Below, one piece after another: positions 1 through 17,641 of a stretch of 64,000 nt of DNA. Position numbers and translations under genes: made by a program. The stretch spans positions 1-64,000 of the forward strand of contig NZ_FNFC01000014.1 of NCBI RefSeq assembly GCF_900100385.1, given 5' to 3'. Within the stretch, counting starts at the first letter, position 1. Every line of letters starts with the position of its first letter. The notes beneath the pieces are model-generated. The model was not told where the DNA came from. It worked only from the letters and a program-made list of their open reading frames with translations, and did not search any database. This DNA comes from Halovenus aranensis. GTDB taxonomy: Archaea > Halobacteriota > Halobacteria > Halobacteriales > Haloarculaceae.

Positions 1-288
1 AGGTGGTTTCTCGAAACCACAGGACAGCCAAGTCAGTGTATTTCGGAGTTCTCGTGTGACGGGGCGTGTGCCGTAGATGCCTTTGTAGTAGCAGTGCAGG
101 AAGCCTTTGAAGAGTTCTGGTGGCTTGTGCACTCGTGTTCGCCCCCTCGCAGCGGGGGCGAACACGTCGTACTCCAGCAGAAACTCGAACTCCAAGTACT
201 CGAACAACGGTGCTGTCTCCGTAGCCGCGACATTCAAGAAGTCGTCGACCGAAGCTACGTCTTGCAGGGTTTTGGTGCTGCTGGACAC
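1..288 (-). CDS. DDE transposase, N-terminal part (runs off left edge)
   Basis: An open frame of 96 codons with no stop reads off the left edge of the window. The translation contains EFLLEYDVFAPAARGRTRVH and PPELFKGFLHCYYKGIYG, which match the N-terminal region of haloarchaeal IS4/IS5-type DDE transposases from memory. The GTG at 288 is chosen as start because an in-frame TAG lies a short way upstream and there is no ATG between; TTG at 297 is an alternative. The catalytic aspartates would lie outside the window. Four perfect inverted repeats lie in or just upstream of the gene (3-20, 134-166, 306-321, 344-359). The terminal inverted repeat and target duplication of the insertion sequence could not be assigned. 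The visible part has no frameshift. Confidence 0.8.
   Translation of the reverse strand, partial: MSSSTKTLQDVASVDDFLNVAATETAPLFEYLEFEFLLEYDVFAPAARGRTRVHKPPELFKGFLHCYYKGIYGTRPVTRELRNTLTWLSCGFEKPP
134..166. repeat. 13-bp perfect inverted repeat inside transposase gene
   Basis: Two perfect 13-bp arms, 134-146 and 154-166, flank a 7-nt loop. The arms begin CGTGTTCGCC and the structure is very GC-rich, so it should form a stable hairpin in DNA or mRNA. It lies in the codons for the DVFAPAARGRTRVH region of the transposase. Confidence 0.85.
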
Positions 289-305
289 AGTTTCCAAATC
301 CTGCG

Positions 306-359
306 GCCTCCCTTGGGAGGCTTTCTATGACACGCTCTGGACAACACTGTAAGCAGTGT
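306..359. repeat. Two perfect hairpins upstream of the transposase start
   Basis: A 7-bp inverted repeat (306-312 with 315-321, loop TT) and a 6-bp one (344-349 with 354-359, loop TAAG) follow each other just upstream of the transposase start. They may protect the transposase from read-through or belong to the insertion-sequence end. The role is inference. Confidence 0.6.
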
Positions 360-375
360 ACTGTGTGGTGCTGTT

Positions 376-580
376 TTCGTTCGTTGTACTATTTGTACTG
401 TCTATACTACTACGGTTCGTTCGTACACTACCTACTCGTTGTACTATAATATTACACGGTGATTCGTTCGTTCTATACATACTACTACAGTACTCTCTAC
501 TCTATCCCCTATAGTCCCCTTTCTCTTCTCTCGTACTCTAAACTATTTTAATATGAAATATATTATATAATACATAGTAC
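376..580. repeat. Iteron-like direct repeats next to an AT-rich tract
   Basis: The 9-mer TTCGTTCGT occurs three times, at 376-384, 416-424 and 463-471. The 12-mer TCGTTGTACTAT occurs exactly twice, at 381-392 and 436-447. CTATACTACTAC-like repeats fall between and after them (about 402-413 and 473-488). A strongly AT-rich stretch follows at about 540-580. Short direct repeats next to an easily melted tract are typical of plasmid or viral replication origins, but promoter or operator use is equally possible, and no replication initiator is visible in the window. Confidence 0.5.
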
Positions 581-744
581 CACCATAGTAGACCAACGAC
601 TACTACAGAGACAACCAGCACCGTAGCCACCGCCGAAGAGGTAGCGGCTTCAGCACCAGTAGCCCCACTCATTCCAAACCTCGAAACGACAAGTAGAGCC
701 TATCTAAAGCCACAGAAGCGTGAATAACTCCACCTACACCACAG

Positions 745-1060
745 GCCGTTCAGAAGAGCGTGAGACGGGCCGAGAGCGATTTCTTTTAATTCCGAGTGGT
801 ATGGCCCACGGAAATCTGAACGCGCTCAGAAAGCCGCTCAGGAGACCTAAGAGATTTTATAAATCTATAGAATGCTGACCAATACTTGCGAAACGAATCT
901 GCCACTACTGCCGAAGGAGCCAGCGCCGCTTAGAGCGCCCTGACGTGGGTCACAAGCGATTGCTTTCGTGACCGAGTGGTATGGGGCATAGAACAACGAA
1001 CGCTCTTAGCGCGTTGCTCAGAGAGTTTCTTAGAATCGAGTTAAGAATCTATAACGCTAT
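745..1060 (+). repeat. Diverged tandem duplication, about 130 bp each, period 180 bp
   Basis: Two copies share CCGAGTGGTATGG (793-805 and 973-985) with flanking similarity AGCGATT-CTTT before it and GAACGC-CT-AG and GCTCAG-AGA after it. The shared ATG is at 801 and at 981, exactly 180 bp apart. Copy A encodes a 25-residue peptide ending at 878. Copy B opens a longer frame to 1235. The two peptides share an M-H-NAL-LR pattern. A promoter-like TTTTAAT lies before copy A, and copy B has GGTCAC/GTGACC arms before its ATG. These may be tiny paralogous genes, structured RNAs or relics of a duplicated gene. Confidence 0.45.
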
Positions 1061-2051
1061 AAGAGACTGTAACGCCGCTCTGCTGATAGGGGTATCAGGA
1101 CGAGGTACTGACTTGACCAGTTCGGATTCGGAACTTAATCAAAAGTATAACAATACCAGTATACCGTGTTATATGATATTTTGTGGTAGTGCCGGGTCAA
1201 GCCAAAGACGAACTCGAATAGAACCCGCCACCTGAAGAGTCGTAGGACAACTGGCTGAATCCGGAGTCTCTTTTTCATTCCCTATTCGGGGATGAATTGT
1301 CCCGGAAGGTGCTTCAGATTGAATTTTGTGGGACTCATACGCGACTTCTGAATTTGGCACCCCCATGCTATAATAGACAAATATTTGATATATGGGGTTG
1401 CTCGATTTCAGCGCGGCGACGGCTATCTCGGTGTCCTTGCCGATTAACCCCACCGTCTCGCGGAAGAAAACCGGCATTTCAGACGTTCTAATGCCTGTTC
1501 AGGAGTATTAGAGAAGGCCATAGCGAGTCGCTACGGGCCTGTGGGACTGTCTCTGGTGGGGCTAGCCCGACCCGTAGGCCACCCGACCTGCGTAGGCGTA
1601 CAGCAGGCACAGACACCACCAGAGCGCGTGACACCATATCACATACCCACCGGGTACCGGGGGACGACCGTCGGGGTGGCGGGACTGGTGGCCGGGCCGC
1701 CGGGACTGGCCCGGCTGGTGGGGGACGGGAGTCGGGCCGGGACAGCCGGGGTGGGGTTCAAGCGGTGGCGAAACATTTCAGCGGCTCCGGCTCTCTGAAT
1801 GTCCGTCTGTCGCCCCGGTCGAAGGGGCACCTTTGTTCGTTGATAGGAAACAAGCGAAGCGCTCGAAATTTGGGCGAATCTCGGCCACCGAACGTGAGGT
1901 GTGTTTTATTAATTTTTTAGGTGAGGTTGTTAATTCTGTGCCACCTACGAGAATGTTAATTTTCATGACATTAGTCTGCTTGAAGCGCCTTGACTCGCAC
2001 CTACGCTTATGCCCACGTAGCGGCAATCCTACATCAAGGGAGTCGCCACCA

Positions 2052-2225
2052 ATGCCGAACCCTGATTCGAAATACCGGAACGACGATGGTCGAGTGTTGC
2101 GGTGGGAGCAGATGGCCCGCTACGGGTGGAAGGAAGGCGGCGAGATAGGGCGGACGGAAGACGGCGTTCTCGTTGACGGCGACCTGTACCGCCCTGTCTT
2201 GGACGGCGACCACGACGTGCAATGA
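2052..2225 (+). CDS. Small acidic hypothetical protein of the element
   Basis: A 57-residue protein rich in Asp, Glu, Gly and Arg (it begins MPNPDSKYRNDDGR). There is no recognised domain, signal peptide or membrane segment. The ATG at 2052 is preferred over the upstream in-frame starts because AGGGAG lies 11-16 nt before it and the upstream translation is not acidic. Its stop overlaps the start of the next gene as ATGA (2222-2225), so the two are almost certainly co-translated. The function is unknown. Confidence 0.6.
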   Translation: MPNPDSKYRNDDGRVLRWEQMARYGWKEGGEIGRTEDGVLVDGDLYRPVLDGDHDVQ

Positions 2226-2455
2226 CCGGCCTACCGCTGAAAGAAGTCCTTGGCGGGATTGCTGGCGTGGCTATCATGGTTGCTGTCGTCGGTGTTGTCT
2301 ACCGATGGGCCACTCGTTACGACCCGGGTGGCCCTTTCTCCGGTATTCTTTCGGCAGTTGGTGTGACCGGTGCTGTTGCACTGGCTCTTCTCGGCGGTGG
2401 TCTGCTGGTCGCTGTTGGTTGGCTACTCGGTTTGATTTCAGACGGCGGATTCTGA
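2222..2455 (+). CDS. Small two-TM membrane protein of the element
   Basis: A 77-residue protein with two hydrophobic helices, at about residues 9-28 and 43-70, separated by a short loop containing RWATRYDPGG. It has no signal peptidase site. It overlaps the preceding small acidic gene by ATGA. Small two-TM proteins of this kind are common in haloarchaeal viruses and plasmids as holin-like, envelope or unknown proteins, but nothing here fixes a role. It could anchor the small acidic protein encoded just upstream. Confidence 0.65.
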   Translation: MTGLPLKEVLGGIAGVAIMVAVVGVVYRWATRYDPGGPFSGILSAVGVTGAVALALLGGGLLVAVGWLLGLISDGGF

Positions 2456-2464
2456 AGAAGGGCG

Positions 2465-2878
2465 TCAGTCGTAGTAACTCACGCGTTCGACAACTTCTGC
2501 GAAGGCAACGTTCTCTCGCACATCAGTAATCTCAACGGTGACGCGCTCTCCTTGCTCGGTGTCGGGAACAATGACGACGAATCCACGTTCGACACGCGTG
2601 ATACCGTCGCCTTGGTCGCCAAGGTTTTCGATTTCGACGGTGCGCTGTTCTCCCTCTTCGACGGGTGGCTTCGGCGGCCCACGTTCGCGCTCTGGTTCAG
2701 TGTCGGTGTCGCTGGCGTCGTCGTTAGACGGAGACGGCAGAACAGCCACGCGATACGTCTCGCCTTCCTGAAGGTCGCCAAGTTGAATCTCTTGCTCCGG
2801 CACCTCGACCACATACGACCCGTCGCGCTCTTCAACAGTAGCAGAATACAGACACCGAAGTTGGTCGGAAATCTCCAT
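2465..2878 (-). CDS. TRAM domain-containing protein
   Basis: A 137-residue protein. The first 45 residues are a conserved haloarchaeal N-terminal segment (MEISDQLRCLYSATVEER). An acidic linker follows at about residues 50-75. A TRAM domain of about 60 residues ends the protein, with the pattern VEIENLGDQGDGITRVERG and EVTDVREN-like strands. TRAM is a small OB-like fold that binds RNA, and haloarchaea carry several chromosomal single-TRAM proteins that are thought to act as RNA chaperones. Finding one inside an integrated element suggests cargo able to affect host RNA. It faces the two-gene operon at 2052-2455 with only 9 bp between them. Confidence 0.85.
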   Translation of the reverse strand: MEISDQLRCLYSATVEERDGSYVVEVPEQEIQLGDLQEGETYRVAVLPSPSNDDASDTDTEPERERGPPKPPVEEGEQRTVEIENLGDQGDGITRVERGFVVIVPDTEQGERVTVEITDVRENVAFAEVVERVSYYD

Positions 2879-2932
2879 TTGTAGACCTTACATCTGATAC
2901 ACGACGAAGAACACTTGACTCTGCTGTCTCCG

Positions 2933-3088
2933 CTACTCCGGTGCTACAACGTCCGCACAGTCGGGACACTCCGCCCAAATGCCGGTCTCACCGTCGTCTT
3001 TCTCGTACTTGACCAGAAGCCACGCAGTAGGGATACGTTCGCCGCAGTCCGGACAGCGACCGAGTATCTGCGTGTCGTCGGGCGTCAT
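2933..3088 (-). CDS. Small zinc-ribbon protein
   Basis: A 51-residue protein with two CxxC knuckles (CPDC near residue 12 and CPDC near residue 44) separated by about 28 residues, the usual layout of a small treble-clef or zinc-ribbon fold. The ATG at 3088 is chosen because the longer frame begins with TTG at 3130 and adds a non-acidic extension. Such proteins bind nucleic acid or partner proteins. The specific role is unknown. It probably forms a minus-strand unit with the TRAM gene downstream (54 bp gap). Confidence 0.65.
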   Translation of the reverse strand: MTPDDTQILGRCPDCGERIPTAWLLVKYEKDDGETGIWAECPDCADVVAPE

Positions 3089-3185
3089 GGAAAGGGGGAT
3101 GGAAGGAGCGTGTGACAGTGTTCCTTCCAAGCGAAATTCAATCGCCCTCGAACGTAAGCCTTTGGCGGGGTTTGTGGGTCGAACA

Positions 3186-3201
3186 CACCGGATTTCCGGT
3201 G
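3186..3201. promoter_or_regulatory. 7-bp perfect dyad between divergent zinc-ribbon genes
   Basis: The dyad CACCGGA-TT-TCCGGTG lies between the minus-strand gene starting at 3088 and the plus-strand gene starting at 3254. An AT-rich box A (GATTAATTC, about 3221-3229) lies 25-30 bp before the ATG at 3254, so the dyad is just upstream of that promoter. It is a candidate operator. Confidence 0.4.
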
Positions 3202-3253
3202 GATAGGGGCCACCAGTAGGATTAATTCACTGTCGGCAGAACCTCGAAAACCC

Positions 3254-3409
3254 ATGAGTGTCCGCGCGGTACTCGCTCGGCTACTCTCCGGTGACGACAC
3301 AGAGGTAGTCGTGGAGTGCCGCCAGTGCGGAACGAATCTTTCCCCGGACGCGGACGAGTGTCCGGACTGCGGGTCAGAAGAGATAGGTCGTTATCGGATT
3401 TCGGGGTAG
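3254..3409 (+). CDS. Small zinc-ribbon protein, leaderless
   Basis: A 51-residue protein (MSVRAVLARLLSGDD start) with CRQC near residue 22 and CPDC near residue 37, followed by GSEEIGRYRI. It resembles a widespread haloarchaeal family of about 50-residue double-CxxC proteins. The start is supported by a box A about 28 bp upstream, the distance expected for a leaderless transcript. It is oriented away from the other zinc-ribbon gene, with a shared regulatory gap containing a dyad. The function is unknown. Confidence 0.7.
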   Translation: MSVRAVLARLLSGDDTEVVVECRQCGTNLSPDADECPDCGSEEIGRYRISG

Positions 3410-3424
3410 GTCGTCGGGACGCAA

Positions 3425-3583
3425 TCAGTCAATATCGCCAATCAACTTCGCGCATGTAACGGCGATATTGTGCCTCTGTTGTTCGGTTACTCTGGGTTCT
3501 TCCTCGTCGGCTTCAGAAGCGAGGTTCTCGGCGGCCTCTTGACTTTCGGGAACGCGGGCAGGTGGAGATTTGTCGTGGCTCAT
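3425..3583 (-). CDS. Small acidic hypothetical protein
   Basis: A 52-residue, very acidic protein (MSHDKSPPARVPESQEAAEN start) ending in a predicted helix with RHNIAVTCAKLIGDID. The ATG at 3583 is preferred because the upstream extension is not acidic. The gene stands convergent to the 3254 gene and divergent from the ribbon-helix-helix gene at 3770. There is no recognised domain. Its size and charge would suit a small partner or antitoxin-like protein, but that is speculation. Confidence 0.5.
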   Translation of the reverse strand: MSHDKSPPARVPESQEAAENLASEADEEEPRVTEQQRHNIAVTCAKLIGDID

Positions 3584-3694
3584 AGCCGTAATATCAACCG
3601 GGATACGTGAACTTCTTTCGCTGATTGGACTGCCGATTACCGTTACGGTGGACGCAGGTTGCGTAGGAAGCAGGGGGGTAGACAGTCGCACAAG

Positions 3695-3757
3695 TTTTAT
3701 TGTGGTGTATTATCTACACTAGAATACACTCAATACACAGGGTGTAATACGATACAC
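3695..3757 (+). promoter_or_regulatory. Promoter with TACAC/GTGTA operator array
   Basis: A box A-like TTTTAT lies at 3695-3700. It is followed by a dyad GTGTA-ttatc-TACAC (3705-3719), two direct TACAC copies (3725-3729 and 3734-3738) and a second dyad GTGTA-atacga-TACAC (3742-3757). That is six half-sites at roughly one helical turn spacing, ending just before a GAGGT ribosome site and the ATG of a ribbon-helix-helix gene. The layout fits cooperative autorepression by that regulator. Confidence 0.65.
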
Positions 3758-3769
3758 GAGGTAGAAAAT

Positions 3770-4270
3770 ATGGCAGAAAAGACAGTCAAAGTCGATGAAG
3801 CAGTACACCAACGGTTAGAGGAACTGAAACGAGAATACGGGGTAGAGACTTTCAACGAAGTTCTCCGTCACGAGTTGGATATTATCTCGAAACCCGAGGT
3901 AGACGAGTTGGCGGCTTTCCTTCAGGAAGACGTTAAAGAAACGGTTCAGAGCGTAGTGGAGACAATTAGGGGTATCGGCCAGTTTGACGAGGAAGTAACA
4001 GAAGAGCGGAATAGGGAAGTTCTTGAGTTTATCAGCACAAAGTCAGGGAGAGTTGTATCCCGTATCTCCTTTGACGAGCGGTACTTCCAAGTCCAATATC
4101 GCGGACAGAACGGCGAAATGAAGGACTGTGGTCGAGGGTGGTATTCATCAAACAGTGAGAACCCAAAATTCGGCAGGCATCGTGACACTCACGACCACAC
4201 TGAACCGTCGGATGTGATTGAACAGGTGGAAACCAAAGTGACAGGTGCATACGAGCGGTGGGGAAAGTGA
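3770..4270 (+). CDS. Ribbon-helix-helix DNA-binding regulator of the element
   Basis: A 166-residue protein. The first 45 residues fit a ribbon-helix-helix fold: a TVKVDEAV strand, then LEELKREYGV and TFNEVLRHEL helices. Residues 50-95 are a long acidic, probably coiled helix, and residues 100-166 form an unrecognised C-terminal domain (SRISFDERYFQVQYRG region, rich in Gly, His and Trp). The ATG at 3770 is preceded by GAGGT with a 7-nt gap. The upstream region carries six TACAC/GTGTA half-sites, which makes autorepression likely. The gene probably controls itself and perhaps other element genes. The C-terminal domain may sense a ligand or mediate oligomer contacts. Confidence 0.75.
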   Translation: MAEKTVKVDEAVHQRLEELKREYGVETFNEVLRHELDIISKPEVDELAAFLQEDVKETVQSVVETIRGIGQFDEEVTEERNREVLEFISTKSGRVVSRISFDERYFQVQYRGQNGEMKDCGRGWYSSNSENPKFGRHRDTHDHTEPSDVIEQVETKVTGAYERWGK

Positions 4271-4326
4271 ACATCAGTACGCATTGAATGGAGTTGCCCT
4301 CGGAGAGAAATCGTAGAAGAGAATCA

Positions 4327-4488
4327 CTACTTGACAATGGTCGGTTCGTCCTTCTCGAACAGCCATACGTCGCTGTCGTCGGCGTAGTGCGGGCAGGTCG
4401 CGTCTACGTGGCCGGCGAGAGGTATGGTAGTTATAGATTCGTCAGGAACTTCCGACGTTGCTCCGCTTTCTCGTCTTCTGTCCGAATA
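4327..4488 (-). pseudogene. Startless 53-codon frame overlapping the integrase 3' end
   Basis: A frame open from a TGA near 4490 to a TAG at 4327 gives an acidic, protein-like sequence including PLAGHVDATCPHYADDSDVW and LFEKDEPTIVK. It has no ATG, GTG or TTG. It overlaps the last 58 bases of the integrase in another frame and continues about 100 bases past the integrase stop. It could be the remnant of a gene that lost its 5' end, or a gene entered by a -1 shift from the integrase. No domain is recognised. Confidence 0.3.
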
Positions 4489-5468
4489 TCATAGTGTTCT
4501 GACAGCACCTTCTTCGATACATCCATCCGGTCGCTCACTGCTTGCTGTGGTATATCCCGTCGAAGGTGGAATGTGATAGCCCCCCTACGGACAGGGTGGC
4601 CGGAGACAGTCGAGGGACACTTACAAGCGTCGTTCGTCCGTTGTGCCGCTTCGCACGTCTTCGGTTCCCGACCGTGGGGGCAGTCCTGGCCAACCGCACA
4701 TGGACGCGTGGCGGCGTAGATGTTCCGTCGTATGGAGTTCTTCGCTGGTCGCCCTCTCTTCGTCGTGAACAGTGGCTTTCGCCCGTAATCATCCGTTACG
4801 TGGTGCCTGTGTTCCTCGACGTAGGCCGCCAGCACATCTGATACCTCTTCGGAGAGCGCGATGTAGCGCTCCGCGTTCTCGCCGTTCTTGAGTGGCGTAT
4901 CGGTTTCTGGTCGGTGCCGTATGCGGAGCCGGTCACGCTCGGCGTCAAGGTCTTCTACGTCAAGTCCACGAGCGGTGCCCGTCCTGATTCCGGTGTGCCA
5001 AAGCAAAGCCATGAGCGCGTGGGTACGACTCGCGTAGTGGTACTTCCGAAGGTACGAGAGGATTGGTCTCGCGTCGTCGGCTTCGAGTGCTTCTGTACAG
5101 GCATTCCGGTCGCGGTCAGGCAACACAATCCGCTCGGAGACGTTTGGCGCGACCGCGTTCATCCCCTCACAAAGCCGAACGAATTGGCGGACGGTCGAAA
5201 GGTAGATACTCATGGTGGACTGCTGGTAATCTTCCCCAATTTCGAGGCGATATTCGTTGACCGTTCGAGCGGTCACGTCGTTCATGTTGTCGATACCGTT
5301 CTCGTCACAGAACTCGACAAACGACCCGACGTGCTTGTCATGGAGTTCGAGCGACCGCTCCGCAAGTTCGTCTTTTCGTGACTTGAGATAGAGGGATTTT
5401 GCACGGGCCGGTGCGAGTGGTTCGAGGCGCTGTCCATGCGAGTTCGAGGCGTCGGTTCGGGCGTTCAT
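4431..5468 (-). CDS. Tyrosine recombinase (integrase)
   Basis: A 345-residue protein. Residues 25-115 form a SAM-like core-binding domain, and residues 125-345 the catalytic domain. Visible active-site residues are Arg162 (HTGIRTG), Lys194, His291 and Arg294 (GHPVRR) and Tyr326 (SEHYDIR). The usual second His/Trp before the tyrosine appears replaced by Asp (RMDVS). A cysteine-rich insert (Cys257, 263, 272, 282, 284) sits before the HxxR motif, as in many haloarchaeal virus integrases, and probably binds zinc. The ATG at 5468 is chosen because upstream codons read through the Azf remnant on the opposite strand. The protein should integrate and excise the element at the adjoining Azf-like gene. 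Confidence 0.9.
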   Translation of the reverse strand: MNARTDASNSHGQRLEPLAPARAKSLYLKSRKDELAERSLELHDKHVGSFVEFCDENGIDNMNDVTARTVNEYRLEIGEDYQQSTMSIYLSTVRQFVRLCEGMNAVAPNVSERIVLPDRDRNACTEALEADDARPILSYLRKYHYASRTHALMALLWHTGIRTGTARGLDVEDLDAERDRLRIRHRPETDTPLKNGENAERYIALSEEVSDVLAAYVEEHRHHVTDDYGRKPLFTTKRGRPAKNSIRRNIYAATRPCAVGQDCPHGREPKTCEAAQRTNDACKCPSTVSGHPVRRGAITFHLRRDIPQQAVSDRMDVSKKVLSEHYDIRTEDEKAEQRRKFLTNL

Positions 5469-5522
5469 TGTGATTCTCCGAACCAGCCGTACAGCGGCGT
5501 CAGACCCGGCAAGCCCGCCGTA

Positions 5523-5636
5523 TTCTTCTCCGACAACGACCGGAAGTACTACTCGCTCGAACGCGCCAAGGACGTACTCGGCTACGAGCCACGCGATAAC
5601 TCCGCGGAGTGGGACGGCGCGGAGAAAGTCGCGTAA
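5523..5636 (+). pseudogene. Azf-like dehydrogenase, 3' fragment at attachment site
   Basis: An open frame without a start encodes SDNDRKYYSLERAKDVLGYE followed by PRDNSAEWDG and ends at 5636. This matches the C-terminus of haloarchaeal Azf, an NAD-dependent extended-SDR glucose-6-phosphate dehydrogenase, as remembered from Haloferax. The rest of the gene is missing here. The fragment begins about 55 bp from the integrase start and reads toward the chromosome. The simplest explanation is integration into the 3' part of the gene, with the 5' part, possibly restored by element sequence, beyond the left edge. The integrase promoter must lie in or beside this fragment. Confidence 0.7.
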
Positions 5637-6814: not shown

Positions 6815-6999
6815 CCGACGGTACGGTGACAGGAACGATTTGCAAGCCATAGTATCCGCTGCACGTTTACTCTCACCGGAGTGTCCCACCCGTGAGTTGG
6901 CTGGCGGTCTGTCGCCGCTAAAGGTCGCTTCAGGAGCGCAGGGCTTCCTGAACTGCGATTCAGACATTGCTTTTGTACGTGTTTCCCCTCCCTCTCAGT

Positions 7000-7659
7000 A
7001 TGAGCGATACCGTCTTGATTGCGGACGTCGGCGAGACAATCGGCGAGGCAACAGCACGCCACCTACACGACGCCGGCTACGGCGTTGGTCTGTTCGCCAG
7101 GTCAGCACCGCTTATCGAAGGTCTCGCCGCCGACCTCGGTGCTGGCGCGGTCGCAATCCCGACCGATATCACCGATACGGCGGCGGTCGAGGCTGGTGTC
7201 GAGCGTCTGCGCGAGGAACTCGGCCAACTCGATGCAGTTATTCTCAACGCGACCGCCGGCGGCGGCCGGCCGGTCGAGGATGCAAGCGTCGAGCGCCTCC
7301 GGTCGATGTTCGACGTCCGGGTCGCGGGGTCGCTCGCCTGTGTCCAGGCCGCGCTTCCAGACCTCCGGGAGACCGACGGAACTGTCGTATTCAGCGGCAC
7401 GACCTACGCCGAGAAAACCGCGCCCGAACAGGTCGAATGGGGTGCCGTCGCGCCGGCTACGCAGGGACTTGCGGCCACCCTCGACGCCGCGCTTGCACAG
7501 GTACAGGTCACGTACGTCAGCATCGGCACCAGTGTCACACCGGCCGGAACAGACACACAGCGAAGCCTTGAGGCAGACGAACTGGCGAGACTCTACCAGC
7601 AGCTCATCGAGCGCGACCGAGCAGTAACACGGAGCATGGACGTTTTGCTCCGGGAGTGA
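7000..7659 (+). CDS. Degenerate short-chain dehydrogenase (SDR) family protein
   Basis: A 219-residue Rossmann-fold protein. The usual TGxxxGIG dinucleotide motif reads ADVGETIGEA, and NNAG reads LNATAG. The active-site serine is kept (VVFSGTTY), but the YxxxK pair is lost: the region reads VEWGAVAPATQGLA, with Trp at the tyrosine position and no lysine four residues on. Fold and length are otherwise normal. It is probably not a classical oxidoreductase and may bind a nucleotide or partner instead. The ATG at 7000 is preferred over 6967 because the upstream residues are hydrophobic and precede the typical SDR start. Confidence 0.75.
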   Translation: MSDTVLIADVGETIGEATARHLHDAGYGVGLFARSAPLIEGLAADLGAGAVAIPTDITDTAAVEAGVERLREELGQLDAVILNATAGGGRPVEDASVERLRSMFDVRVAGSLACVQAALPDLRETDGTVVFSGTTYAEKTAPEQVEWGAVAPATQGLAATLDAALAQVQVTYVSIGTSVTPAGTDTQRSLEADELARLYQQLIERDRAVTRSMDVLLRE

Positions 7660-7722
7660 CCCAGTCAAAGAGTGACTTTACTCGTCATCACTGACTTTTT
7701 TATGACGGCTGTAGCCAGTGGT

Positions 7723-8244
7723 ATGAATCGTCGACGGCTCCTCGCGACCATGGCCACCCTCGCAGGCGGGGCGCTCGCAGGCTGTCTTGGCGGCAATTCT
7801 AACCCTCCAGAGACGCCGACATCGACGCCAGACCCGACCGAATCGACCGCGGACGCTACCCCAGAATGGGTATCAGCGAACTGTGACACAGCCCCCGACA
7901 CCGACGAACTGCCCGACCCTCCCGAAACGCGGACCAGCGAGCGCGTTGTCGACTACGTAACCGAGTTCGAGCGGACCTACGTCGTGGCGACCGACGACAG
8001 CTACGACGCCGTCGCGGACATCAGCGTCACGACAGTAGAGGAGACCGGCGACGGCTACCGGGTCGCGCTCGCCGTCGAGGGTCGCGCCGAGACGCCGGGA
8101 GAAAACGAGACGCCCCAGCCCGCGGATGCAACCTCCCACCGTGCGACCTATCGGCTGTCGAGCGACCACCTGCTGCGCAAACACCAGGGGTACGCCGCCG
8201 GCCGAACGCTCTCCGAGGACTGCTGGACGGTCGGAACCGACTGA
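7723..8244 (+). CDS. Tat-dependent lipoprotein of unknown function
   Basis: A 173-residue protein with a Tat signal (MNRRRLLATMATLAGGALAG) and a lipobox cysteine at residue 21, followed by a Thr/Pro/Ser-rich linker to about residue 48. The mature part (about 120 residues) has conserved-looking strands, RVVDYVTEFERTYV and VEETGDGYRVALAVEG, and a C-terminal ATYRLSSDHLLR. It is expected to be anchored outside the membrane by a lipid. Two cysteines in the mature domain (in SANCDTAP and SEDCWTV) could pair. The ATG at 7702 is an alternative start. Confidence 0.75.
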   Translation: MNRRRLLATMATLAGGALAGCLGGNSNPPETPTSTPDPTESTADATPEWVSANCDTAPDTDELPDPPETRTSERVVDYVTEFERTYVVATDDSYDAVADISVTTVEETGDGYRVALAVEGRAETPGENETPQPADATSHRATYRLSSDHLLRKHQGYAAGRTLSEDCWTVGTD

Positions 8245-8436
8245 GCGCTCGCAACTGACACACTGACCGGGCGACTGCTCCCGTCACTCATTTTCGACGA
8301 CTGGTTGTGAACATATTCGGGACAACGTGGTTACCTGTCCACTACGCCTCGACTGACAAAAGCTAACGGGCGCTTCTTACGGCGTAATAACCCGTCGACA
8401 GCTTATCCCCGCGTACTCCAAAGCCTCGCATGTACT

Positions 8437-9594
8437 ATGACAGACCATATTGGCGCCCCCGGAACTGGCGTGTCACGACGAGAATTTCTCGCAGCGACCG
8501 GCGCGACCAGTATCTCGGCGCTGGCGGGGTGTCTCGGCGGCGGCTCGTCCGACCCGACAGAGACGCCGATGCAAACCCAAACGCAGTCTCAGTCCCAGTC
8601 GGACTCGCTCCCGTACACCAGTCCCCCGAAGGTAATCAACGTCGACGAGCAGGGCGGGAGTGTAACGATGCGGACGCTGCCTGCTCGACACGCAGTCCAC
8701 CCCAACGACACGATGGGTGGTCCCATCGAGTTCCCGCGCGTCTGGGCGTTCCAGGCCGACGATAACGACCCCAGCGTTCCGGGCCCGATTCTCCGGACGA
8801 CAGCGGGCAACGCGATGGAGGTGACACTCGACAACACCGACGGCCGCCACCCGCATACAATCCACTTCCACGGGGTCACGAAGACCTGGGAGAACGACGG
8901 CGTTCCGACGACGACCGGCATCGAGGTCCCGCCAGGAGAAAAACACACGTACGAAATCCCGGCCAACGTCCCGGGCACGCATCTCTATCACTGCCACTAC
9001 CAGACCCACCGTCACATCGACATGGGGATGTACGGCATCCTCCGGGTCGACCCCGAGGGGTACGAGCCCGCCGACCGCGAGCACTTCATGACAATCAAAG
9101 ACTGGGACTCTCGCATCCCGAAGAAATGGGCCGGCGAAGCTGACTTTACCTTCGACACGACATCGCGAAACCCAGACGTGTTCACCGTCAACGGCAAGAG
9201 TGCACCCCGAACGCTTCACCCGGAACAGGGGTCGCCGATTATCGTCGAGGAAGGCGACACGGTCCGGGTTCATCTCGTCAACGGCGGGTACATGTCACAC
9301 CCGATTCACCTCCACAACCACCGCTTCCAGCGCGTCGAGAAAGACGGCGCTCCCGTTCCGGAGGTCGCCCGACACGATATGGATGTCACGAACATCGCGC
9401 CCGGCGAACGACACACGATTGAGTTCACGGCCGACGTTGACCCCGGTATCTATCTCATGCACTGTCACAAGGTCAATCACGTCCTGAACGGCTCATTCTA
9501 CCCTGGCGGAATGATTACCGGCGTCGTCTACAAGTCCGTGATGGACACGGACGTGTTCAAACAGCTCATGGAGTACGCGGGCTACTCCGGGTAG
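8437..9594 (+). CDS. Two-domain multicopper oxidase, Tat lipoprotein
   Basis: A 385-residue protein with a twin-arginine motif (SRREFLAA, residues 13-20) and lipobox Cys32, so it acts outside the cell membrane. It has two cupredoxin domains. Domain 1 has HPHTIHFHG (138-146) and HCHYQTHRHIDMGM with Cys186, His191 and Met196, a complete type 1 copper set. Domain 2 has HPIHLHNH (288-295) and HCHKVNH with Cys343 and His348, but no Met or Leu at the axial spacing. The HxH and HCH motifs give the trinuclear-centre ligands. Likely substrates are Cu(I), phenols or another reductant. Two-domain laccases work as trimers. The following gene is convergent. Confidence 0.85.
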   Translation: MTDHIGAPGTGVSRREFLAATGATSISALAGCLGGGSSDPTETPMQTQTQSQSQSDSLPYTSPPKVINVDEQGGSVTMRTLPARHAVHPNDTMGGPIEFPRVWAFQADDNDPSVPGPILRTTAGNAMEVTLDNTDGRHPHTIHFHGVTKTWENDGVPTTTGIEVPPGEKHTYEIPANVPGTHLYHCHYQTHRHIDMGMYGILRVDPEGYEPADREHFMTIKDWDSRIPKKWAGEADFTFDTTSRNPDVFTVNGKSAPRTLHPEQGSPIIVEEGDTVRVHLVNGGYMSHPIHLHNHRFQRVEKDGAPVPEVARHDMDVTNIAPGERHTIEFTADVDPGIYLMHCHKVNHVLNGSFYPGGMITGVVYKSVMDTDVFKQLMEYAGYSG

Positions 9595-9766
9595 ACCGGC
9601 GGTTTACGAGTCCGCAGGATTCTTTGGCTGTCTCGTGTTTGACTGCCGACCAGCGTGTCAGAGAACACCCGAATGAACCCGTTCTCTGGCAATTCTATCT
9701 GTACATGCTCTTATTGAAGACAGTGACACAGAGTAACCCTCCAGAGACGTGTCAGAATTGCTCGTT

Positions 9767-10357
9767 TCAGTCGTCTGCCTCGGCCCGCTGGACTGTCAGG
9801 TTATAATCACCGTCTCCGTCTTTGGACACAGTGAAAAAGATTGTTAGCTTGGCCTCCGAGTCGGCTGTTATCCTCAGATTGGTGACTGCAGTGCTGAGGC
9901 TACCCTCCGATATATACGGTGAGTCTCCATTTTTTAACTTTCGTCTCCCGATACTAGCTGTGAGACTAAGTTGATTGTACTCTCCTGGTGCTATCTGCTC
10001 TGCGTTGACTACTTTGATAGGTTCTCCTGATATATCGATAGTATCTACTATTCTGTGTTCACTGGAGTCGGCTTCACTGTTGAGAGTGACTTTCCCTATC
10101 CCCAACTCAAGCTGGGTGAAATTTTCTACTGTCTTTTCATCGGCTGCGACACTGATCGTGATATTCCCCGTTTCTTGATTTGTACTGCTACCACCCTCTG
10201 GACCGTTGGAACCGGTTACCGTTGTCCTGTTATAAGACTGATTTGTCTCTTCGGACTGTGTGTTGTCTTCGGTCTCAGACGTTCCACCAGAGAGACACCC
10301 ACACACCGCTAGTGAGGCACTTGCTACTGTTGTCTTGATTGCTGTCCGCCGGTCCAT
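9767..10357 (-). CDS. Low-GC lipoprotein, DUF4382-like
   Basis: A 196-residue protein with a twin-arginine-like start (MDRRTAIKTT) and a lipobox cysteine at residue 21 (VCGC). A Thr/Ser/Gly/Asn-rich spacer runs to about residue 65, and a beta-rich domain follows (ITISVAADEKTVENFTQLEL, IVDTIDIS, EYNQLSLTAS). The domain order resembles DUF4382-type secreted proteins. Codon use is clearly more AT-rich than its neighbours and the protein is rich in Asn and Lys, so recent transfer is likely. Box A ATATTTTATC at about 10383-10392 lies about 30 bp before the ATG. Confidence 0.65.
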   Translation of the reverse strand: MDRRTAIKTTVASASLAVCGCLSGGTSETEDNTQSEETNQSYNRTTVTGSNGPEGGSSTNQETGNITISVAADEKTVENFTQLELGIGKVTLNSEADSSEHRIVDTIDISGEPIKVVNAEQIAPGEYNQLSLTASIGRRKLKNGDSPYISEGSLSTAVTNLRITADSEAKLTIFFTVSKDGDGDYNLTVQRAEADD

Positions 10358-10740
10358 GCACGCTGTTTGCCAAATATGTAGATAAAATATTCGGTCGAAT
10401 GTTTCAGCTCGGTAACAGCCTTTCGAATCATATCTAGATTGAAATATACTTAATCGACGAACGTACTCTATCTCACAGTCTCGTATCTTACTAACTGAAT
10501 AGGTCTCTCGACGGACAGTTCACCCGGAGCGATGTGACACCAACGACGACCAACTGCTGAATCTACTCTCTGGGTCTTTCACATCATCTCTGCTATATTC
10601 TAAATAACACAGTACACTGGCCGGTCTCTTCCTCGCATCTACTGACCGCTGTTGTAACCATGTAGCGTTTTTATGCTACGTTCTGTCGACAGCTGCGAAG
10701 ATAGAAAAATAGGACTCGCCGCTGAGCGTTCTGTCTGGCC
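10358..10740. other. Intergenic region with AT-rich promoter and terminators
   Basis: About 380 bp without a credible gene. The left end holds the promoter of the low-GC lipoprotein. The right end holds a T-run (minus strand, about 10705-10710) that probably ends transcription of the epimerase gene. The middle is AT-rich and unlike nearby chromosome, which fits a transferred block together with the lipoprotein. Confidence 0.45.
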
Positions 10741-11703
10741 TCAGACCGGGTCCATCCCGGCGTCTTCCCGGAGGACGTTGATGTACTTGCGGAAGCCGGC
10801 TTCGAGGTCGTACTCGGGGTCGTAGCCGAGGTCGTCCTGTGCTTTGGTCATATCGAGATTCTGGGTCCAGGGTAGCTCGCCCTCGTCGGAGACCTCGATG
10901 TCGGCGTCGGGCATGATGTCCTCGACAGTTTCGGCGGCTTCTCGGACCGTCGCTAGCACGCCACGGACGTTGTACACACGCTGGCTCAGCTCGGACTCGG
11001 GGGTGAACGCGCCCTTGCGGAACGCCTGGGCGATGTCCTCGACGTGTTGCCAGTCGATGGCTTGGTCGCCGTACTCGACGCTGTAGGGCTCGCCGAGGGC
11101 GGGCTTTTCGATGATGTTCGCCAGGAACGCGGAGCCACCCGTCTCGCGGTAAGGGCCGTAGGCGACCGTCGGGCGCAGCGCGACGTGGTCGAGACCGTAG
11201 TCCTCTTCGTAGATACGGGCCTGGTGTTCGTTGTATTCCTTGGTCGCGCCATAGAGGGTGTCGGGGTAGACGAGTTGCTCTTCGTCGATCCACTCGGCGT
11301 CGTAGTTGTGTGGCGGGGCGTACACTGCGGCAGAGGAGGCCCAGGCGACGCGTTCGACCTGGTCGTCGAGGGTGCGCGCGGCCTCGAAGATGTTGTTCGT
11401 GCCGGTGATATTGACGTCGGCGGCCATCCGCGGGTTCTCGCGGGCAGTCGTCGTCAACAGTGCAGCCAGGTGGACGATGTGGGTCGTCCCCGTCTCTTTG
11501 ACGGCCCGAATCACGTCCGTCGAGTCGGCGATGTCGCCCCGCCGGATTTCGGTCTCCTCGGCGGCCCCGAGTTCTTCGAGGATGTCGGTGTCGGTCGAGA
11601 TGTCGTAGGCAACCACGTCGTGACCCTGGTCCAGCAGGTCTTTGACGACATACGAGCCGATGAAGCCGGTACCACCAGTGACGAGGACAGTACTGTCGCT
11701 CAT
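10741..11703 (-). CDS. NAD-dependent epimerase/dehydratase (extended SDR)
   Basis: A 320-residue protein with the extended-SDR nucleotide motif VTGGTGFIGSY at residues 7-17 and a YGATK catalytic YxxxK. HLAALLTTTARENP and RPTVAYGPYRETGG segments are typical of UDP-sugar epimerases or dehydratases. The substrate cannot be told. GalE-like and nucleoside-diphosphate-sugar epimerases of haloarchaea share these features, and no other sugar genes lie beside it. The ATG at 11703 is chosen over a GTG two codons upstream. It is separate from the Azf remnant at 5523-5636, although the family is the same. Confidence 0.8.
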   Translation of the reverse strand: MSDSTVLVTGGTGFIGSYVVKDLLDQGHDVVAYDISTDTDILEELGAAEETEIRRGDIADSTDVIRAVKETGTTHIVHLAALLTTTARENPRMAADVNITGTNNIFEAARTLDDQVERVAWASSAAVYAPPHNYDAEWIDEEQLVYPDTLYGATKEYNEHQARIYEEDYGLDHVALRPTVAYGPYRETGGSAFLANIIEKPALGEPYSVEYGDQAIDWQHVEDIAQAFRKGAFTPESELSQRVYNVRGVLATVREAAETVEDIMPDADIEVSDEGELPWTQNLDMTKAQDDLGYDPEYDLEAGFRKYINVLREDAGMDPV

Positions 11704-11757
11704 ACCCACACATCCACAGGCATCCGTGGTTAGTGCATCGATATCTCACCGGGGCTG

Positions 11758-12684
11758 TCAGGGCTCGGGCACCGCCAGCGACCGAACACCCCAGGCCCGC
11801 TGGGCCTCTGCTGTGACGGGAACGGTCCCGAGTTGTTCCCACTGTCTGCTGTGGCCGCGGAGCACTGTACCGTCGTTGGTCCCTGCGAACACGGCTTCGC
11901 CGCTGGTCGCCCACGAAATGACAAACGACTCCGGTTCGCCGGGGTAACTCACGCGGTCGAGTTTCCCGTCGTGTTCGACGAACAGCCCGGCTTCCGGTGG
12001 CCTCCACGGCGGCGCACTCCGGTTGCCCGCAGTGTAGAGCTGGCCCTGATAACAGGACGCACGGACGTACTCGTAGGGGCCGAGGTCACGCTCAGTCCAG
12101 GTCTCGCCGCCGTCGGTCGTCTCGAAGACCCCGCCCCGCTTTTCGGGGCCGCCGACTCCACAACTGAGGACCCACCGCTCGCTCGAAACCGGGACGGCGT
12201 CGTGCACGTCGTCGGGGACGGCGTCGAACTGCTGCCAGGAGTCGCCCCCGTCAGTGCTTGCGAGGAACCCCCCGACTTCGATGCCCACGAGAAGCACCGC
12301 CCCGCCCTCGCTCGCGGCGACGGTCCGGACCCAGGCCTCCTCTCGGTGAGGATTCGTCGGCCAGTCGGCCCCGTCGGCGACCCGCTGGAACTGCGCGTGT
12401 CGTGTCCAGGTTCTGCCGTCGTCCACAGAGCGGTACAGCGCGGCCGGTCGACCGCCGGCGTAGATGGCGTCGGGAGTACAACAGAGTGCGTGCACGTCTG
12501 TCAGTCCGAGGTTGACCCAGCTCTCACCACCGTCGCTCGATCGAACCACGCCCGCATCTGTCGCCGCGAGCACTGCGTCGCCGTCTGTCTGTAGCTGTCT
12601 GACCGATGCATCGAAGACTCGTTCGGTGCGTCCGGACTGTTCGGCGACGCGATAGACGCCCCCAGGTGTTCCAGCGAAGACCAT
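11758..12684 (-). CDS. BNR/Asp-box beta-propeller protein
   Basis: A 308-residue protein with repeated Asp-box motifs (SSDGGESWVN, SVDDGRTWTR, STDGGDSWQQ, TTDGGETWTE), typical of sialidase-like or YCF48-like propellers. No signal peptide or catalytic residue is visible, so it is probably an intracellular propeller. The ATG at 12684 is chosen because the frame upstream (to 12786) crosses the divergent promoter of bolA and is less acidic. A similar protein lies at 44107-45087. The role is unknown; repair- or stress-linked scaffolds use this fold. Confidence 0.75.
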   Translation of the reverse strand: MVFAGTPGGVYRVAEQSGRTERVFDASVRQLQTDGDAVLAATDAGVVRSSDGGESWVNLGLTDVHALCCTPDAIYAGGRPAALYRSVDDGRTWTRHAQFQRVADGADWPTNPHREEAWVRTVAASEGGAVLLVGIEVGGFLASTDGGDSWQQFDAVPDDVHDAVPVSSERWVLSCGVGGPEKRGGVFETTDGGETWTERDLGPYEYVRASCYQGQLYTAGNRSAPPWRPPEAGLFVEHDGKLDRVSYPGEPESFVISWATSGEAVFAGTNDGTVLRGHSRQWEQLGTVPVTAEAQRAWGVRSLAVPEP

Positions 12685-12763
12685 GCCGGCACTTACAGAG
12701 ACGAGCGGAAAATAGTCGTCGCCCAACAGGCAACTTTTGAGAGTGCACCCCCAGAGTCCATGT

Positions 12764-13015
12764 ATGAACATCGACCTATCCGACATCGAGACCCGAATCG
12801 AGCGCGAAATCGACGACGCCGAGGCGACGGTGACACAGCCACGCGGCCCCGAGGACGACGACCACCTCGCGGCGAGGGTCGTCTCGCCGGCCTTCGAGGG
12901 AGAGACGCTCGTCGACCAACACGAGATGGTCTACGATGCGTTAGAGGAGTATATGACCGACGAGATTCACGCCCTGGAATTGAAGACTTACACGCCCGAA
13001 CAGCACGACGCGTAA
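12764..13015 (+). CDS. BolA/IbaG family protein
   Basis: An 83-residue protein of typical BolA length. The variable acidic N-terminal part is followed by DHLAARVVSPAFEGETLVDQ and HEMVYDALEEYM, matching the conserved class II KH-like BolA core. BolA proteins bind monothiol glutaredoxins and share a [2Fe-2S] cluster in iron sensing or Fe-S transfer. Here a CGYS-type monothiol glutaredoxin lies at 14730, one gene away in the same direction, which supports a pair. The gene is divergent from the propeller gene, with about 80 bp between starts. Confidence 0.85.
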   Translation: MNIDLSDIETRIEREIDDAEATVTQPRGPEDDDHLAARVVSPAFEGETLVDQHEMVYDALEEYMTDEIHALELKTYTPEQHDA

Positions 13016-13120
13016 GTCACAGACGACTCGAACTGGCTGTCACGCGTTGTGAGTGATACTTTGCGTACCGAATATCTGTTCACCAAAGCTACTTACACCG
13101 ACGTTCAGAACTGGTGACAC

Positions 13121-14674
13121 ATGACAGAGTCACCGACCGGTGCGTACTCTCGAGAGGAACTCGCGGACGATGCGCGATTCCTCGCTCAGACGCTCGCCGA
13201 CAGCCATCCCTCGCCCTTTACAGGTCACAGGAACCGGGTCGCGTACTACCGCACACTGGAAGAACTGGTTCGCGAGATTCCTGAGGAAGGCGAATCCCTC
13301 GAATCGTTCTACTACCGAGTACAGAGCTTTGCCGCTGCACTCCGTGACGGACACACGACGGTGTTAGCGCCGGCGTCTCTGGATTCGGACAGCGAGGAGC
13401 GACTCCCGCTCGGGTTTCGCGTCGTCGGCGACCAACTCTACGTCTCGGAGGTCTACAGTGAGGACGCCGAACTGCTCGGCGGCCGGCTGTTGTCCGTCGG
13501 GGATATCGAGGTCCCAGAGCTTCGACGACGACACTCGCGGCTCGAGAGCGCCGACAACCGGTACGGCGACCTGAACTATCTCGGTCGTACGCTCGCGTCA
13601 GACCAGGAACGGCTTCAGCAACTACTCGACTCGTCGACGATAGAGCCGTCAGCTACCGTCGACTGTCCAGACGGAACCGCCCGGACGGTGACGCTGGAGC
13701 CAGTCGCTGCTGAAACGCCAGTGGCCACGCTTGAACAGGCCGTCGACCAACCCTCGACCGCCGGCGAACCCGCCTACACGTTCCTCGACGAGGATACGGT
13801 GTTGCTCACATTACCTGATTGTGCCTCCCACCGGGAGGTCCACGAAGTTGCTGCGGCACCCGGTGGACCAGCCGAAGACATCTATGACACTGAGGAGACA
13901 TACCGCCGACTCGTCGGCGACCCCGTTCCCGAGAGCCACGACGAGCAGGTAGCCGACCTCCCGTCGGCGACGGAGCGACTGACCACGCTGGTCACGGAGA
14001 TGGCCGACGCGGAGACAGAAACACTCGTCGTCGATACGCGACACAACACCGGCGGCATGTCCTTGCTCCCGTACCTCCTCATCTACGTCCTCTATGGCTG
14101 GGACGGCATCGCGACGGCCGCCGAGAACCAGTACGATGCCGCGCGAGTTTCGCCCCTCTCACAGGACCAACTCGGCGAGTTCGGTCACGACGCCGACAGC
14201 GACGGCGCGACGGGGTACGATTTCTCGACGTACTTCGCCGGGACGGACCAGCGCGTCGAGGAGATCCGGACACAGCTCTCACAGCTGAGCCCGACCTTCA
14301 GCGCGGAAGTAGAGAGCGGGGAACACGAGGCGCGGTACTGCCCCGACTCTGTGGTTGTGGTGACTGGCCCCGAGACGTTTTCGGCTGGCATGGAGATACC
14401 GATGCTCCTCTCGCATCTCGGGGCCGACATCGTGGGTGTCCCCTCCAGCCAGTCACCGAATGGGCCACGGGATACGGTGCTTGCGGAACTCCCGAACACT
14501 GGGCTCGAGGTTCGGCTTTCTAACCGCTATCACGTCTTTCAGCCGGCCGAAGACGGTGCCGTTCTGGAGCCAGACGTGTTGCTCACTCCAGAGCGATTCG
14601 ACCTACTCGACCGTCGCGCCGACGCGAGCCTCGAACTCGCCGTTTCGTACGCCCGTGGGGAGTTGCCGCTGTAG
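13121..14674 (+). CDS. S41-like (C-terminal processing) peptidase family protein
   Basis: A 517-residue protein. Residues 1-95 form a helical lid with SHPSPFTGHRNRVAYYRTLE. A degenerate PDZ-like segment follows at about 100-150. The catalytic S41 core starts near residue 225, with LVVDTRHNTGG and VVVVTGPETFSAGMEIPM, where Ser421 is the likely nucleophile. The usual lysine partner four residues on is replaced (SAGME), so activity may depend on another residue, as in tricorn-type members. No signal peptide is seen, so it should be cytoplasmic. It lies between bolA and the glutaredoxin gene. Confidence 0.75.
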   Translation: MTESPTGAYSREELADDARFLAQTLADSHPSPFTGHRNRVAYYRTLEELVREIPEEGESLESFYYRVQSFAAALRDGHTTVLAPASLDSDSEERLPLGFRVVGDQLYVSEVYSEDAELLGGRLLSVGDIEVPELRRRHSRLESADNRYGDLNYLGRTLASDQERLQQLLDSSTIEPSATVDCPDGTARTVTLEPVAAETPVATLEQAVDQPSTAGEPAYTFLDEDTVLLTLPDCASHREVHEVAAAPGGPAEDIYDTEETYRRLVGDPVPESHDEQVADLPSATERLTTLVTEMADAETETLVVDTRHNTGGMSLLPYLLIYVLYGWDGIATAAENQYDAARVSPLSQDQLGEFGHDADSDGATGYDFSTYFAGTDQRVEEIRTQLSQLSPTFSAEVESGEHEARYCPDSVVVVTGPETFSAGMEIPMLLSHLGADIVGVPSSQSPNGPRDTVLAELPNTGLEVRLSNRYHVFQPAEDGAVLEPDVLLTPERFDLLDRRADASLELAVSYARGELPL

Positions 14675-14729
14675 CCGTCGGAGACGCTGTCCAGAAGCCC
14701 TTTTTGTGTTCCGCCACTAACAGTGGCTG

Positions 14730-15068
14730 ATGACCTTCGACCCCAACCAGAGTCTTCCCCAGGAAGAAGTCGAGGAGACCGTCGAGACAGCTATCGAAGA
14801 CAACGACGTCGTCCTGTTTATCAAGGGCACGAAACACATGCCACAGTGTGGGTACTCCGACCGCGCGCTGCGGCTGGTCGGCCAGTACCGCGACGACTTC
14901 GAGGTCGTCGATGTACTGGACTCTCTCGACGAGTTCCGGGCCGCTCTCGAGGAGCGCAGCGGCTGGGAGACGATTCCACAGACGTTCGTCGACGGCGAGT
15001 TTGTCGGCGGTAGCGACGTGCTCGCGGAACTTGACGAGCGCGATGAACTCGAAGCGACGGTCGCCTGA
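14730..15068 (+). CDS. Monothiol glutaredoxin (CGFS type)
   Basis: A 112-residue protein with FIKGTKHMPQCGYS, where Cys40 is the active cysteine in a CGYS version of the CGFS motif. IPQTFVDGEFVGGSDVL supplies the cis-proline and glutathione-binding GG motif. Such proteins carry and transfer [2Fe-2S] clusters and pair with BolA proteins; a BolA gene lies one gene upstream. Haloarchaea lack glutathione and use gamma-glutamylcysteine, so the cluster ligand probably differs. It ends one base before the convergent ilvA stop. Confidence 0.9.
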   Translation: MTFDPNQSLPQEEVEETVETAIEDNDVVLFIKGTKHMPQCGYSDRALRLVGQYRDDFEVVDVLDSLDEFRAALEERSGWETIPQTFVDGEFVGGSDVLAELDERDELEATVA

Positions 15069-16313: not shown

Positions 16314-16380
16314 ATCCTGCCCGTTTGCGTCGGTGCGTGTTAGTGGTATCGGGACCGGAAAGAAAGCGGAACGTGTGACA

Positions 16381-16427
16381 TGCAGTCGCGACTGCAACCG
16401 TAGGGTTGCCCTCGGGATACTTAAAAC
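16381..16427 (-). promoter_or_regulatory. ilvA promoter with 16-bp perfect palindrome
   Basis: On the minus strand a box A-like TTTTAAGTA lies at about 16419-16427. The palindrome TGCAGTCGCGACTGCA occupies 16381-16396, where transcription should begin, about 70 bp before the ilvA ATG. It could be an operator for a dimeric regulator (Lrp-type is a natural guess) or form a hairpin at the 5' end of the mRNA. Confidence 0.55.
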
Positions 16428-17175
16428 CTAATGACCGTATCAGAATCAAAACCACAAGAAGGAAACCGGATATGCCGCCCGTCTGACGGTGAGACGACGC
16501 CTGTCTGATATATAAACAGAGGGCAGCGGCCGTGCTGTCGTTCCGGGTGTACTTCAGGTCGACCAGCCGCATTCTATATCGCGATAAATAATTTATCAAT
16601 CGCCACAATCGGTATCTATGGGTTCAAGCTCACCAACTGATTCGCGTCTCTCGGGGCACGAAACGCGCTGTCGTCGCGGATTCGTCGCTGACGGCGTAGA
16701 TACGAGACGACACACCCCGCGACAGAGCTCGGTCCTCGCGCGCGCAGCGGGGACTGCGCGACCAGTGGTCTACCCTCTGGTCGGCGTGGTGGCGATTCGA
16801 CGAAATACGAATTCGGTCGTGGTGATTGTTGCGGTACGTCTCGTGACCATGTCACATGACTGGCCGTGTCACATCGTGTGAAATGCGTCTGTTGCTACGG
16901 CCGTAACGACTCGCAATACTCACTACCGCTTGCCGTCCTCGCGTCGCTCAATTCGCTCACAACCGGCGCGTCTTATGTCTAGCTCGGGTGGTTTCTCCTG
17001 TTGTCGTCCGCCGGCCGGTTGCGTAGCTGGTAGATAGTATCTGTACTCCGGAATGTCGCCGGGGTAACGCCCCACTATATATAATATATCGCTTGCTGCT
17101 ATACAGAACCAGCGTGAGATGCGAGCCAGACGACGAGACACAATGCTCTTGTCCGTCGCAACGAGCCCTTCGAGC
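16428..17175. other. Long intergenic region before the arginine decarboxylase gene
   Basis: About 750 bp with no convincing gene. It contains a strong AT-rich palindrome at 16583-16597 and a frame starting with ATG at 16618 (87 residues, not acidic). A GC hairpin lies at 16741-16760 (CGCGCAG/CTGCGCG, 6-nt loop), and a second stretch of AT-rich sequence (TATATATAATATATCG) lies around 17080. A small RNA or a short leaderless protein could start near 16615. Confidence 0.45.
16583..16620 (+). promoter_or_regulatory. Palindromic box A ahead of a possible leaderless start
   Basis: GATAAAT-A-ATTTATC (16583-16597) is a perfect 15-base palindrome and a good archaeal TATA element. Its centre is 28 bp upstream of the ATG at 16618, the spacing of leaderless haloarchaeal mRNAs. 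Being symmetrical, it could drive both directions or be a repressor site. Confidence 0.45.
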
Positions 17176-17637: not shown

Positions 17638-17641
17638 CCGC

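Follow-up and report, generated by a model that had tools for sequence, protein, structure and literature searches.

A predicted SNJ2-type integrase beside a displaced azf 3′ end marks a likely mobile-element integration site in Halovenus aranensis

The window analysed here is a stretch of 64,000 nucleotides from Halovenus aranensis (contig NZ_FNFC01000014.1, positions 1 to 64,000), and near its left end a tyrosine integrase gene (int) adjoins an orphan 3′ fragment of azf, the gene of a predicted Azf-type glucose-6-phosphate dehydrogenase (Table 1). The original prediction, made from the letters alone, had described an azf fragment abutting an outward-reading integrase at 4431-5636, and both the arrangement and the coordinates proved right. 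The fragment translates on the + strand as FSDNDRKYYSLERAKDVLGYEPRDNSAEWDGAEKVA, has its stop codon at 5634-5636 and represents the last ~35 codons of azf. On the integrase side, the longer listed open reading frame (ORF) that starts at 5642 is an in-frame upstream extension of the integrase ORF. A Pfam scan of the integrase gave a match to Phage_integrase (PF00589) above the cut-off (E=2.6e-10) and a match to Phage_int_SAM, the SAM-like N-terminal domain (PF02899), just under the cut-off (E=0.00046), and the protein contains the catalytic-motif stretches HTGIRTG, HPVRRGAI and EHYD, with core residues that were invariant across the Azf-targeting clade described below. In the integrase loci compared, int and azf are separated by TCCGAAC and a variable stretch, and we infer that the corresponding interval of the window would function as an attachment (att) arm. 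A search of the window for tRNA genes found none.

Table 1 Features of the integration locus in the window
Feature	Position	Strand	Remarks
ISH-type transposon end, N-terminal part of transposase, inserted in the element	1..337	-	Runs off the contig end
10-bp target-site duplication GTGTTGTCCA (as - strand)	338..347		Repeated at C24:351-360; each copy directly adjoins a transposon end on the outside
int-proximal part of the predicted integrated element	338..5526		Absent from the empty site in G002
Element gene, weak VapB-like match	3659..4270	+	phrog_18289, E=0.004
Tyrosine integrase, predicted SNJ2-type, Azf-targeting clade	4431..5468	-	345 amino acids; start ATG at 5468; transcribed away from the att site
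Putative int-side att arm, integrase start codon to azf repeat	5469..5526		58 bp; holds the TCTCCGAAC motif
Displaced native azf 3′ end (orphan fragment)	5526..5636	+	Ends EKVA-stop; C-terminus matches the empty-site allele EKVS-stop in G002; frame checked
99-bp direct repeat, int-side attachment site	5527..5625	+	100% identical to C24:8676-8774
Chromosomal flank collinear with sequence downstream of the G002 azf	6946..16595		76-91% identity in blocks 6946-8244, 10739-11744, 12762-13008 and 14686-16595

The genome of the window (G000) is assembled in 56 contigs, and base 1 of the window is the start of its contig (C26). The second attachment site, which the original prediction had proposed to seek beyond the left edge of the window, was found together with the rest of azf on a partner contig (C24). 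This contig carries an intact azf of 256 codons at 8656-9426 on the minus strand, and alignment of the two att copies showed that the perfect repeat is the last 99 bp before the final codons of the gene. Beyond this common block the copies diverge, with the C24 gene ending in ERISNDL and the window fragment in EKVA, and no other match was found when window positions 1-20000 were compared with C24:1-18700. An azf C-terminus match was present in 377 of the 392 genomes of the order that made up our sample (genomes with G-numbers below), and because of this and the perfect identity over 99 bp to the 3′ end of an intact azf, the fragment is not a chance resemblance.

An empty site was then identified in a genome of the same genus (G002), which has a single uninterrupted azf ending in EKVS and no second 3′ copy. 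C24:8669-12738 and C26:5527-5629/6946-16595 are collinear around this one gene, and its flanks are a homologue of C24:9427-12738 (a histidine kinase gene) on one side and of window 6946-16595 on the other. From these flanks and the EKVS end, G002 therefore represents the empty site, the native 3′ end is that of the window and the element-encoded end is that of C24. The two contigs could also be joined on their opposite ends. C24 starts with the C-terminal part of the transposase whose N-terminal part starts the window, and C26:1-338 recurs on several other contigs of G000, near the contig start in three of them, so the inserted ISH-type transposon causes the contig break. The 10-bp duplication outside both transposon ends is that of one insertion, and C24 and C26 are therefore neighbours across one insertion sequence (IS) copy. 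On this sequence evidence, C24 and C26 together make up one predicted integrated element of ~13.5 kb plus the IS, of which C24:351-8675 (L004) is the remainder outside the window.

Taken together, we consider it highly probable (roughly 0.94) that the feature in the window is one end of a ~13.5-kb integrated mobile element (plus the IS) that integrated at the azf 3′ end as its attachment site in the chromosome. A circle bearing a copy of this 3′ end would have recombined with the chromosomal gene through its own integrase, with both the circle and the catalysis assumed. Since the element copy holds the last ~30 codons and the stop, azf is still a complete ORF at C24 with an element-encoded C-terminus, and the native 3′ end (window 5527-5636) is orphaned beside the integrase. 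The DNA itself shows the direct repeat, how the contigs join across the IS, an empty site and an intact azf ORF, as well as the clade-wide association described below. The azf frame was preserved in all intact copies examined, and Azf would be expected to stay active after integration. Thus the long direct repeat at both ends and the empty site in a relative bear out the original idea of integration at an Azf-type gene by the adjoining integrase, but its two proposed outcomes, a replacement 5′ end or a broken gene, were both unsupported: the element brings a replacement 3′ end and the intact gene lies at its other end. No alteration of glucose breakdown is expected beyond the changed C-terminal tail (ERISNDL vs EKVA). 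An unrelated intact azf elsewhere in the genome had been named as a sign against integration; an intact azf does exist, but it is the other attachment site of the same element.

The position of the crossover could be narrowed with Halorientalis persicus (G407), in which the orphan fragment matches a congener (G241) in its allele from about +12 of AAGTACTAC to beyond the stop, and a different allele is found there in the intact gene. This pattern places the crossover at or left of GACAACGACCGGAAGTACTACTC, with the element supplying the last ~30 codons, and the crossover probably occurs in the 5′ part of the repeat (GACAACGACCGGAAGTACTACTC).

Several points weigh against this interpretation. Excision and integration were not observed; the G000 element is not whole on one contig and lacks the central part of the IS; the empty site in G002 does not contain C26:5637-6945 (1.3 kb), so that a further insertion or deletion there is unexplained; and dyad symmetry, which is expected of a tyrosine-recombinase core, was sought in the azf core of seven sequences and was in most of them no better than in shuffles.

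The identification of the target gene as azf in the original prediction held up. The closest solved structures to the azf product are uronate dehydrogenases, and Azf of Haloferax volcanii, which has the catalytic residues S115, Y152 and K156, was likewise modelled on a uronate dehydrogenase (PMC8506132). Compared by published positions, the C24 Azf has S109 with Tyr at +37 and Lys at +41, which is the published catalytic spacing, and the equivalents of N181, H186 and R193, most of the published glucose-6-phosphate-site residues, are present at the published spacing. In G000 and some relatives NLNEDH stands in place of the NLTX2H motif, with Asn for Thr and with Asp at the H185 position, but several other azf orthologues have NLTX2H. 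By these residues the gene is a predicted Azf-type glucose-6-phosphate dehydrogenase of the short-chain dehydrogenase/reductase (SDR) type.

The association of integrase and azf extends across the haloarchaea. Besides the window's own integrase, the 392-genome sample gave six matches at 62-95% identity, and the rest were at 53% or less; an eighth clade member came from Haloferacaceae archaeon XH8. All eight, from several families, are directly preceded by an azf 3′ fragment on the upstream side of int and form one clade in the integrase tree (support 98/96), whereas none of 26 more distant integrases compared had an azf fragment beside it (0/23, plus 0/3). In several genomes the fragment, the integrase and the intact azf are on one contig, and the elements bounded by intact azf and fragment are 3.3-23 kb long with repeats of 87-126 bp: 11.4 kb in G277 (126 bp, 94%), 7.1 kb in G323 (116 bp, 94%), 3.3 kb in Halomarina oriensis G233 (87 bp, 98%), 23 kb in G356 (111 bp, 95%) and 14 kb in Natribaculum breve G235 (87 bp, 99%). 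They have little in common except the integrase, and most of the cargo differs. Between G000 and Halorientalis persicus the integrase is 95% identical but azf only 73%, which means that the element has moved between genera. No tRNA gene was found within the ~4-kb loci of the clade, no relatives of the clade were found in viral contigs, and the plasmids and phages searched gave integrase matches only below 60%. Judged from these comparisons, the integrase lineage is specialised on azf and moves between haloarchaeal families with differing cargo.

Whether the G000 element can still move is a separate matter that overlaps with the interpretation above. It could be a relic that was integrated by an ancestor's integrase and is now immobile, as the IS inside it, the splitting of its type IIG restriction-modification gene into two frames and a 1.9-kb remnant with azf fragment in the same-genus G001, where no integrase was found between, would suggest; however, the integrase ORF of the window is intact, and the att copies are 100% identical over 99 bp compared with 88.6-99% in other elements, suggesting recent integration, so we regard immobility as possible but doubtful. 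Much less probable is that the azf fragment is a local duplication or an assembly artefact with the integrase adjacent by coincidence. C26 is a draft contig that begins in a repeat, and short tandem azf 3′ duplications without integrase do exist in other genomes, but the pairing of integrase clade and fragment in 8/8 cases, several with the intact azf on the same contig, is hard to reconcile with coincidence, the 3′ flanks of the two copies differ, one being native and the other element-like, and G002 has no second copy. That the element disrupted azf and the C24 gene is a second, independently acquired copy is the least credible, because, although gene and fragment lie on different contigs, only one full azf was found in G000, the upstream histidine kinase gene and the right flank of the window both neighbour the single azf of G002, and the IS join carries the matching 10-bp duplication.

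The integration mode described above can be compared with that of related integrases. The window integrase has 43.3% identity to the SNJ2 integrase over 342 aligned positions (95% of its length) and 41.9% to the HHPV4 integrase over nearly the full length, so by the published criterion of at least 30% identity over at least 60% of the protein (PMC8371274) it is a predicted SNJ2-type integrase, and the SNJ2-type integrases of the pleolipoviruses SNJ2, HHPV4 and Halfgib1 share the same SAM-like N-terminal and Phage_integrase domains. The few element proteins that were scanned included none recognisable as pleolipovirus-like. The attachment site of SNJ2 is a 13 bp stretch at a tRNA 3′ end (PMC8371274), while that of the window integrase lies in a protein gene and spans 99 bp. 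The orientation also differs: attP follows int on its downstream side in Halfgib1, and the SNJ2 int stops ~60 bp short of the record end, but here the att site is on the 5′ side of int. Some more distant integrases have tRNA genes near the int 3′ side. Four sister integrases adjoin 3′ fragments of two other protein genes, namely a Gate-domain membrane protein gene in G108 (14.6-kb element, 91-bp, 98% repeat) and G276, and a DUF7331 gene in G191 (6.8 kb element, 67-bp, 98.5% repeat) and G229, and these four form with the Azf clade a supported group of twelve (98/98). We lean slightly towards a history in which this SNJ2-type branch gave up tRNA genes in a single switch, took to protein genes at their 3′ ends and moved attP from the int 3′ side to the 5′ side, after which its lineages became tied each to one conserved gene (azf, the Gate-domain gene or the DUF7331 gene), with azf as a recurrent hotspot across haloarchaea where element-encoded C-termini repeatedly rewrite the tail of the enzyme.

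Replacement of the 3′ end of a central-metabolism gene is also familiar from coliphage 21 and e14, which integrate in the 3′ end of icd and supply a substitute 3′ end, although these elements are bacterial and the target gene is unrelated. In archaea there are published cases of integration into protein-coding genes, among them genes repaired by an end and a stop that the element encodes (PMC6563490; PMC8371274). The att site of Halorubrum virus BJ1 is in the HMG-CoA reductase gene (PMC8371274); this virus is likewise a haloarchaeal element with a metabolic protein-coding target, but the gene differs. NitEve-E2 (PMC6563490) is similar in that an empty site was found in a relative, but that work concerns different archaea, other target genes and short att sites, and in the text consulted no single integrase clade is described as bound to one metabolic gene. 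No report of azf as an attachment site was found in the literature searched, with the original SNJ2 integrase paper outside that search, so the use of azf as an integration site, and a lineage of integrases that is bound to this gene and spreads horizontally, appear unreported. The pattern shows that one integrase lineage can stay with one metabolic gene in several haloarchaeal families, as other lineages stay with tRNA genes, and that integrase and att site travel together while most of the cargo varies. The azf gene would serve as a predictable docking site in the chromosome and keep an open frame when occupied, and orphan azf fragments in annotations would be explained by these elements. 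The Azf clade and its sisters provide about twelve natural cases of protein-gene target choice, and they make testable the need for dyad symmetry at such sites, which is an open question in the field (PMC8371274).

Other traces of azf 3′ ends were also seen. In Natribaculum breve G235 (L074:9952-12030), ~1 kb of other sequence splits the Azf-clade integrase gene, and the element is probably stuck. Orphan azf 3′ fragments lie 0.5-3.3 kb downstream of the intact azf, with no full Azf-clade integrase reported between, at L084 (G033), L085/L075 (G001), L116 (G371), L117 (G284), L186 (G161) and L187 (G285), and G371 appears to retain a remnant of an integrase N-terminus; such loci are probably decayed elements. 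The azf 3′ end is also found in short tandem duplications, with the copies usually lying ~205-220 bp from each other and a ~48-bp double-hairpin at one constant position (GGCATC^TCTCC). These duplications were found at L080, L081, L082, L083, L086, L091, L092, L107 and L109 (G137, G103, G090, G110, G133, G030, G201, G189 and G180, respectively), with three copies in G133, and are possibly relics of integrated elements. The double-hairpin hardly differs between two families, whereas the azf copies of each species match that species. It was considered as a specific attP arm and dropped, because the palindrome is also present at many other sites in chromosomes, in some cases apparently within genes. 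This hairpin (about GTCCTCGCGAGCGAAGCGAGCGAGGGCTCGACAGACGAGCGAAGCGAGTCTGTCGGTG) is scattered in many haloarchaeal genomes (L146-L156 and other places) and seems to sit within coding genes at some of its positions, as palindromic elements of other microbes do.

Genes recognised in the cargo of the G000 element are the type IIG restriction-modification gene, one for a SWIM-type zinc-finger protein and one whose protein family occurs on 69 haloarchaeal plasmids. The two overlapping frames of the restriction-modification gene (L004:652-4526, on C24) indicate a frameshift or a sequencing error. Beyond the azf fragment, a gene for a GIDE-like membrane protein (5879-6814) lies within window 5637-6945, the 1.3-kb stretch that is absent from G002 and precedes the collinear flank.
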